DNA of 64,000 bases, taken from the NCBI GenBank assembly GCA_035712365.1, contig DASTAW010000021.1:1-64000 (forward strand). Reading direction: 5' to 3'. The first letter of the stretch is position 1; every line of letters begins with the position of its first letter. Under the pieces are notes generated by a model. It saw only the letters and a list, made by a program, of their open reading frames with translations. It was not told the DNA's origin and searched no databases. Below are positions 15,312 through 17,819 of the stretch, piece after piece. The DNA comes from Terriglobia bacterium. GTDB lineage: Bacteria; Acidobacteriota; Terriglobia; UBA7540. The translations under genes and the position numbers were made by a program.

Positions 15312-16022
15312 CTAAACCGCGCCCGCCGCCGGCATCAGCACCACCTCGTGGACGGCCGTCCGCGCTGGTTGCTGAAGAGCGGAAATCACCGCTGCGGCGA
15401 CGTCTTCCGGCTGCATAACGTTGTCGCGCGAAATCTCAAATCCAAATTCCTTCAGCATCTCGGTGTCGGTCAATCCCGGCAGAATGGCCGTCACCCGGAT
15501 GCCCTTCGGCTGCAACTCTTTCCTCAGCACCCGCGTCAGCCCCAGCCCTCCGAACTTTGCCGCCGTGTACGCTGAGCAGTTCTCAAAGGCGTTCCGGCTG
15601 GAAGTGGAGAGAATATTCACCAGGTGCGCGTGACGGCTGCCCTCCCAAAGCGGAAGCGCCGCCTTCGACGTCAGAAAAATTGAGCTGAGGTTTGTTTCGA
15701 TGTTGCGCCGCCAGTCTTCAAGCGTGGTTTCGGTAAACGGCTTGTAAGTGAAAATGCCCGCGCAGTTCACCAGGATGTCCAGCCGGCCATGGCGCTTTTT
15801 CACCTGCGCGAACAGGCGAGTGACATCGGCAGGCTTGCCGACGTCTGCTACAACAACACTCGCGCCCGCCCGCAGAGTCTTCCTGGCCGACTCCAGCGCC
15901 TTCCGGTTGCGCGACACCAGCACCACTTCGGCGCCCGCCCGCGCCAGCCCCCGCGCAATCGCCAGGCCGATGCCGCGGCTGGCGCCGGTCACAACAGCAA
16001 CTCTATTTTTCAATGTGGCCAT
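15312..16022 (-). CDS. SDR-family NAD(P)-dependent oxidoreductase
   Basis: 236 residues, classical short-chain dehydrogenase/reductase length. The cofactor motif TGASRGIG is at residues 13-20, NAG at about 87-89 (VNCAGIF), the catalytic Ser in NILSTSSR and the catalytic YxxxK in YTAAK. The residue after beta-2 (VSRNRKAL) favours NADPH. The substrate cannot be told. It is on the same strand as, and downstream of, the pterin operon, but a 201-bp inserted element separates them. A sepiapterin-reductase-like role is therefore possible but unproven. Confidence 0.88.
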   Translation of the reverse strand: MATLKNRVAVVTGASRGIGLAIARGLARAGAEVVLVSRNRKALESARKTLRAGASVVVADVGKPADVTRLFAQVKKRHGRLDILVNCAGIFTYKPFTETTLEDWRRNIETNLSSIFLTSKAALPLWEGSRHAHLVNILSTSSRNAFENCSAYTAAKFGGLGLTRVLRKELQPKGIRVTAILPGLTDTEMLKEFGFEISRDNVMQPEDVAAAVISALQQPARTAVHEVVLMPAAGAV

Positions 16023-16143
16023 TGATTAGCGCTGTATAGAGTTTCTTCGCAATTCGTAATTCCCGTTCCCTAATCCTTTGGTGACCGGTGCTAAAGGTAC
16101 CGCCTTAGGTGAAAGTTCATCGACTAATCACTATTCACTAATC

Positions 16144-16344
16144 ACTAGAAGTCATTTCAAAACCCCCTGAAGTCCATTGAACTGAGGTTAGTTGGCATGA
16201 CCATTCCCAATTTGGAGGAGCCACGAGGCATGCCTGTACTGAAAATAAAAGACTTAATCCGAACGTCTACTCCCTCGTTTGGAATTGCTCGCGTCTGGTC
16301 AAGCATTTCAATAGGTTCCATGGGGTTTTGAAATGACTTCTAGT
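16144..16344. mobile_element. MITE-like element with perfect 23-bp terminal inverted repeats
   Basis: 201 bp. The left end 16144-16166 (ACTAGAAGTCATTTCAAAAC then CCC) is the exact reverse complement of 16322-16344. The similarity continues inward imperfectly (ATTGAA words at about 16177 and in complement at about 16309). TA dinucleotides flank the GAAGTC/GACTTC core and could be the target duplication. It contains no open frame. The right end lies 9 nt from the folE stop. The gap 16023-16353 holds nothing else but AATTCGTAATT and CACTAATCACT words. Confidence 0.82.
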
Positions 16345-16353
16345 CACTATTCT

Positions 16354-16962
16354 TTAACTCCTCTCCCTCACCAACCGCAGGAATTCCGCGCGCGTCTGAT
16401 CACAATCGCGGAAGACGCCCAGCATCGACGACGTCACCGCCACGGAATTCTGTTTTTCCACGCCGCGCATAATCATGCACAGGTGTCGGGCTTCAATAAT
16501 GACGCCCACTCCCTGCGGCTTGATCGCCTCCATGATGGTCTCGGCAATCTGCGTGGTCAGCCGTTCCTGGATCTGCAATCGTCGCGCAAAAACATCCACG
16601 AGCCGCGGAAGCTTGCTCAGCCCGATCACTTTCTCCGTGGGGACGTAGGCCACGTGGCAGCGCCCGAAAAACGGCAGCATGTGGTGCTCGCACATGCTGA
16701 AAATCTCGATGTCCTTCACAATCACCATCTGGTCATAGGCGACGGAAAAGATGGCGCTGTTCAGCACCTTCTTCACGTCCTGACGGTAACCCCTGGTGAG
16801 GAACCGCAGCGATTTGGCCACGCGCTGAGGCGTTTTCAACACTCCTTCGCGACCGGGATCTTCTCCCAGTTCGCGCAGCGTGGTGCGCACCGCTTCCTCC
16901 AGCGGATCGAGGTTCACCGCCTGTCCCGCTTCTACAACGGTTGGTGTCTCCTTGATATTCAT
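16354..16962 (-). CDS. folE: GTP cyclohydrolase I
   Basis: 202 residues. Converts GTP to 7,8-dihydroneopterin triphosphate, the entry to folate and other pterins. The zinc and catalytic motif [20 protein letters not shown] is at about residues 89-108, followed by [20 protein letters not shown] and the second zinc Cys in [13 protein letters not shown]. The ATG overlaps the upstream pterin synthase stop by 4 nt (ATGA), so the three genes form one operon. The close link to two PTPS genes points to a tetrahydropterin or deazapurine use of the product beyond folate. Confidence 0.98.
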
Positions 16963-17411
16963 TCCTTTACTCTCGTTGCCGCCGCGGTGGAATCCCTGCC
17001 CGAGTACTCGAAGGAATTAGAGTTCGTCTCTTCCAGGCGCACTTTCTCGAGATCTGCGCTTCCCTTCGTGCCCTCGAGTTTCCGGCGGAGCAGGTTATAA
17101 ATCTCCACGCAGAGGTTCTCCGTGGTCGGCACCTTTCCTTGAAAATTGGGGACGTCCAGGTTCAGATAGGTGTGGCCAAACGGTTCCAGCACTTCCTGCT
17201 CGACCGCCTGGTCCAGCACCCCCAGGTCCATCACCATTCCCGTCGCCGCATCCACCGGTCCGCGCACCGTCACTTCCACAATGTAGTTATGCCCGTGCCC
17301 ATAGGGGCTGTTGCACTTGCCGAACACGCGACTGTTCTCTTCCGCGCTCAGCCCCTCGTTGTGCAGGCGGTGCGACGCTGAAAAGCGGTATCGTTTGGTG
17401 AGTGAAACCAT
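16959..17411 (-). CDS. 6-pyruvoyl-tetrahydropterin synthase / QueD-family protein, divergent paralogue
   Basis: 150 residues. Zinc ligands FSASHRLH and GHGHNY and the catalytic Cys in [12 protein letters not shown] are present, as is the late Glu (EETN). However the Asp of the catalytic Asp-His pair is replaced: PFGHTYLN where the neighbour has RMDHKFLN. Activity may be altered or the reaction different (for example carboxy-tetrahydropterin synthesis or side-chain cleavage). It starts on the nucleotide directly after the stop of its paralogue and overlaps folE at its end. Confidence 0.9.
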
Positions 17412-17819
17412 TCAGTCTCCGTAATAATCCACAAACAAGTCGTCTGTTTCGTACAAGCGAATTCGATGCAATCGGCCGCTCGGAAGTTTCGCCGCCAGCA
17501 GGTTCCAGATTTCCACCGCGATGTTTTCCGTGGTGGGGATCGTGGTGGCGAACACCGGCACTTCCTTGTTCAGAAACTTGTGGTCCATCCGCTGCATGAC
17601 TTCCGATTCCAGCACGGCCTTGAGGTCCTTGAGATCGAGCACCATGCCGGTGGTTTCGTCCACCTCGCCCGCCACCGTCACCTCAACCGTGTAGTTATGC
17701 CCGTGGCCGTGCGGGTTGTTGCACTTGCCGAAGATTCGCCGGTTCTCTTCCGGGCTGAAATCCGGATTGTGGTAGTAATGCGAAGCCGAAAATTCGGCGC
17801 GCCGCGTCAGGTAGATCAT
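17412..17819 (-). CDS. 6-pyruvoyl-tetrahydropterin synthase family protein
   Basis: 135 residues. All catalytic features are present: FSASHYYHN and GHGHNYTVEVTV for zinc, Cys in FGKCNNPHGHGHN, the Asp-His pair in RMDHKFLN, and YETDD near the end. FGKCNNPxGHGHNY, TGMVLDL and TTENxAVEIWNLL resemble the eukaryotic PTPS of tetrahydrobiopterin synthesis more than short QueD enzymes. It converts dihydroneopterin triphosphate, the FolE product. It is the first gene of the operon PTPS-PTPS-folE; the queuosine partner genes queC and queE are not nearby. Confidence 0.92.
   Translation of the reverse strand: MIYLTRRAEFSASHYYHNPDFSPEENRRIFGKCNNPHGHGHNYTVEVTVAGEVDETTGMVLDLKDLKAVLESEVMQRMDHKFLNKEVPVFATTIPTTENIAVEIWNLLAAKLPSGRLHRIRLYETDDLFVDYYGD

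Follow-up and report, generated by a model that had tools for sequence, protein, structure and literature searches.

We identify the 193-bp element that lies between folE and a short-chain dehydrogenase (SDR) gene, at a probability of about 0.93, as a non-autonomous MITE of an IS5-family, IS427-type insertion sequence. The window, by which we mean the whole 64,000-nucleotide stretch analysed, is part of contig DASTAW010000021.1 of Terriglobia bacterium assembly GCA_035712365.1. The element is short, has terminal inverted repeats and carries no transposase gene; copies are dispersed over three loci of its own genome, a target-site duplication flanks it, element-free sites are found in relatives and its ends are common to an autonomous element. 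The MITE-like reading of the preliminary description is thereby supported by the genome copies, the same-ended insertion sequence and the element-free gaps. It is a genuine, recently active, low-copy MITE within one acidobacterial family, new but ordinary in a well-known class of elements that depend on the transposase of a larger one. The features of the element, with the evidence for each, are as follows.

16148..16340, minus strand: MITE, 193 bp (191 bp AAGTC..GACTT plus one G/C per end); genome copies, family relatives, ends compared with the insertion sequence, boundaries from 21 elements
16148..16166, plus strand: left terminal inverted repeat, 19 bp, GAAGTCATTTCAAAACCCC; exact repeat and 21-element boundaries
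16322..16340, minus strand: right terminal inverted repeat, 19 bp, the perfect partner; exact repeat and 21-element boundaries
16146..16147, no strand: target-site duplication TA, left copy (target CTAG); 21-element comparison
16341..16342, no strand: target-site duplication TA, right copy; 21-element comparison
16240..16258, minus strand: conserved central block of the MITE family, about TTAAGYCYTTTRTTTTCA; conservation profile and alignment
16157..16321, minus strand: open reading frame of 54 aa within the element, considered non-coding; codon-position divergence and premature stops

The minus strand is given to the MITE as the orientation in which its left end best fits the transposase-start end of the parent insertion sequence. 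Exact inverted 23-mers are present at 16144-16166 and 16322-16344, as had been claimed, and the imperfect pairing seen inward of them is borne out by a repeat search in the window, in which the arms reach 46 nt at 83% identity. The 18-mer core of the ends occurs twice in the window, where chance would predict 0.04 occurrences. Set beside 20 other elements, each 23-mer resolves into one chance flanking base, a C, the duplicated TA and a 19-bp terminal repeat. The 23-mer therefore stands as an exact match and falls as an element end, the remainder being TA and two target bases; the element proper spans 16148-16340 with perfect 19-bp inverted ends. The TA noticed at both edges was correctly read and is the duplicated dinucleotide.

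The boundaries rest on a table of 21 elements (14 MITE copies and 7 insertion sequence copies), from which G016d, whose end bases are missing at a contig edge, other contig-cut copies, and G007b and G007c, both identical to G007a, were omitted. The inner dinucleotide is identical on both sides in 17 of the 21, the whole 4-mer in only seven. Because TA agrees while the outer bases mostly differ, the duplication is TA and the outer G/C belongs to the element, and a 4-bp CTAG duplication was rejected. Restoring the target in the 17 elements with a TA pair gave CTAG in 11, TTAG in three and CTAA in two, one being cut by a contig end, so that all 16 complete cases fit YTAR; G016a, G007d, G017 and G016e (4/21) have no clean TA pair. 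In silico excision of the window element leaves an intact CTAG inside a degenerate TAATCACTATTCACTAATCAC repeat, which surrounds the target at 16120-16145 and 16340-16357.

Two further copies are present in the genome assembly, which comprises 65 contigs and 4.67 Mb: a full one at C30:11259-11458, one base different from that in the window, and one at C29:1-127, identical at 127 of 127 bases before the contig end cuts the rest; a search for other copies had been proposed in the preliminary description. Since their flanks differ, the three are separate insertions, and the C30 and C29 copies adjoin genes unrelated to those of the folE locus. The C30 copy (L026:3244-3270, G000) lies where a CxxCH-rich gene, which we read as cytochrome-like, has its TAG stop codon; the stop is itself part of the target, and duplication of the target preserves it. 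The refuting pattern, a lone copy retained as a conserved portion of the operon, was seen neither in this genome nor in relatives.

Of 39 family genomes, six were found by DNA search to contain relatives of the MITE, and a sequence-only profile matched 12 of 399 genomes of the class. Eleven of these 12 belong to the window's family, and in some of them the match is weak or incomplete; the twelfth, G209, has the central block alone, without ends. Full-copy counts omit G209 and the weak profile matches in G003, G005 and G008, which have one end or a different interior. The homologous elements in other genomes of the family are 190-192 bp long and sit at YTAR sites with TA duplicated. Copy number is low: each draft genome with the element showed between 1 and about 7. 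A pattern scan of genome contigs returned 102 stretches. By a loose criterion, 12 of them had an end beside the block; relatives account for 11 of these, all Acidobacteria/Terriglobia MAG contigs, and the last, from Bizionia, was judged a chance match. Records with matches include the MAGs DBS2-1.bin74 (of the window's genus), NC_groundwater_1260, JOPF155 and YP4.bin65, and plasmid and phage collections gave no match to the element. Elements at L056 (G003) and L059 (G008) have related ends, or one related end, around different interiors, which suggests further miniature types moved by the same insertion sequence group. Among the papers listed in literature searches for MITEs with Acidobacteria or IS5, none describes the element, judged by title and the start of the abstract, and a literature search with part of the end sequence found nothing related.

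A full insertion sequence with the same ends, which the preliminary description expected to name the parent family, was found at C31:73539-74453 and places the parent in IS5. It is 915 bp long and the only full insertion sequence of this kind detected in the genome. It carries two frames that overlap, one of 162 and one of 174 aa. They match Pfam DUF4096 and DDE_Tnp_1 and, above its cut-off, both halves of NCBIfam model NF033580 (IS5 family). An A5G5 run lies within the frame overlap and could serve as a slip site. Relatives of the transposase occur in 15 of 39 family genomes; seven insertion sequence copies were delimited (884-915 bp), and those of relatives have the same ends. Left ends of MITE and insertion sequence are 0.48 identical at positions 16-40, compared with 0.25 in permutations (P about 0.002), and right ends 0.59 identical at positions 16-25, compared with 0.29 (0/500). 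At the level of sequence, the likeness between the two was shown to extend past the terminal repeat. Roughly 120 bp of the MITE interior has no match to the insertion sequence, and therefore a simple internal deletion cannot account for the whole element.

The right end of the C31 insertion sequence is broken by a nested second one of about 1 kb, IS5-type, with a 9-bp duplication, AAATGACTT. As this end is interrupted, the C31 element may no longer move itself; its transposase frames are still open despite the nested copy, and we infer that its transposase could mobilise the MITE in trans. Nesting of this kind was observed in two genera, at L025:4455-5458 (G000 C31) and L182:2398-3400 (G019), where a second insertion sequence of ~1 kb with the same ends lies inside the end of the first and occupies the same 9 bp, AAATGACTT, with the 9-mer duplicated. 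The nested copy in L025 encodes a single 308-aa IS5-type transposase. Either the insertion is target-specific or a composite has spread as a unit.

The genes around the element are listed here.

16354..16962, minus strand: folE, GTP cyclohydrolase I, upstream neighbour; stop codon 13 nt from the element
15312..16022, minus strand: short-chain dehydrogenase (SDR), downstream neighbour
16959..17411, minus strand: PTPS/QueD-family gene 1
17412..17819, minus strand: PTPS/QueD-family gene 2

Gene order and orientation in PTPS-PTPS-folE-SDR (window 15312-17819) are conserved in the family. We found folE in 37 of 39 family genomes, and at the 30 loci examined, the window included, PTPS genes adjoin folE in 27 and the SDR gene follows in 17. 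FolE, PTPS and sepiapterin reductase are given, in part of PMC5041015, as the three steps of tetrahydrobiopterin synthesis, and by this analogy the SDR may be a sepiapterin-reductase-like enzyme. The folE-SDR gap measures 335 nt in the window and 18-302 nt at the 16 other loci; without the element and one TA it would be about 140 nt. Ten of the 16 other gaps were read in search of an empty site, as had been proposed, and none contains the element ends (at up to 2 mismatches). Two of the ten belong to the window's genus. Their gaps contain TAGGAAATAGGGAATAGG-like repeats and, set against the joined window flanks, show the same kind of short TAG-rich repeat in a weak alignment; because of this weak alignment we deduce the precise empty site from the element and not from the congeners. 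As all ten gaps are without the element, an insertion after the split from the two congeners is more likely than loss in them. The suggestion that the element had split an older operon is not upheld: one spacer is longer within a conserved, co-oriented gene order. The element is a clean insertion, with its parent named, in a pterin gene order that is conserved, and otherwise ordinary genome biology.

All 14 two-ended MITE copies are 190-192 bp long and ten are 191 bp; G007d, G006 and G016e are one base shorter. Interior identity between genera nevertheless falls to about 0.5. At MITE positions of about 81-104 a central block retains identities of 0.70-0.80, against 0.29-0.46 in the adjoining stretches. 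A MITE selected for more than its ends, whether for an internal site used in transposition (for a host bending factor or as a second transposase site) or for an effect on the host, would explain both the 190-192 bp length in 14/14 copies and the block, and we regard this as possible, if clearly the lesser expectation. IHF-like sites have been suggested for IS427-group elements, in part of PMC3281130; here, IHF-like matches in the copies are not clearly above those in shuffles, save in one copy (1/200). In the G007 type the right half can hardly be aligned, and the independent lineages are few, which also speaks against selection on the interior. The narrower proposal of a length-fixed transposition unit, rather than a decaying deletion relic, in which the 191-bp spacing and the block near its exact centre are needed for the transposition complex, appears to us improbable. 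If true, length would have been kept while sequence was lost across genera of one bacterial family. Constant length and a conserved centre together form a small, testable puzzle about how IS5-type transposases recognise very short elements.

A mobile cassette carrying a passenger micro-protein gene is very unlikely. The 54-aa frame starts at an ATG just within one end and stops within the other, it is open in the window copy and several relatives with start and end alike, and element length is nearly constant; however, divergence by codon position is flat (0.45/0.39/0.41 in 45 pairs of 10 copies), and therefore no frame on either strand has a third-position excess. Premature stops interrupt the frame in 7 of 14 copies (C30, G037, G016b, G016c, G016d, G038a and G038b), some others lack its ATG, and the three one-base-shorter copies are also at odds with a gene. 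The earlier reading of the interior as non-coding was right in effect, a frame being present without coding signal.

We give equally little credence to a structured regulatory RNA or operon transcription terminator that is not a mobile element: a long hairpin is indeed predicted for the 201 nt (-75.8 kcal/mol, z -6.2, equalled by 0/200 shuffles), but the genome copies lie beside unrelated genes, the same gap in relatives is without the element, a search of Rfam up to E 1 gave no match, neither promoter- nor terminator-like sites were found in 15900-16500, and the consensus fold recovers mainly the terminal repeats, with a covariation term of -0.24. By consensus, the hairpin would not act as an intrinsic terminator, and since no intrinsic-terminator-like site was found, the idea that the element supplies the operon's transcript end finds no support.

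For the MITE itself, we propose that an insertion sequence transposase, supplied in trans, would recognise the 19-bp ends and perhaps also conserved inner blocks, and would have moved the element into the folE-SDR gap, at the CTAG of a short degenerate repeat. Such an insertion would add 195 bp to one spacer in the co-oriented PTPS-PTPS-folE-SDR order, and the long hairpin in the transcript may change mRNA stability or SDR expression. The effect on the host is likely that of a longer, hairpin-forming spacer before the SDR gene and nothing more.

The parent insertion sequence resembles the IS427 group of the IS5 family. Members of this group are described, in part of PMC3281130, as 832-865 bp long, with terminal repeats of 13-21 bp and a direct repeat mostly of 2 bp, some having two overlapping frames with a frameshift motif. 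The parent likewise has a size of about 0.9 kb, short ends, a TA duplication, two overlapping frames and IS5-family profile matches, and its assignment is by size, ends, duplication, frames and profiles and not by a transposase tree. The MITE has its ends in common with this insertion sequence and differs from it in having no transposase. Mobile insertion cassettes (MICs), which are also named in PMC3281130, are similar to the MITE in having insertion sequence ends without a transposase; unlike them, it has no passenger gene with coding signal. Prokaryotic MITEs are characterised, in part of PMC3852290, as derived from insertion sequences, below 500 bp, with no recognisable frame and often similar to an insertion sequence only at their ends. 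The window MITE is like them in all the traits named there, and is set apart from the MITEs that this part of PMC3852290 describes by its low copy number, its near-constant length across genera and its conserved central block.
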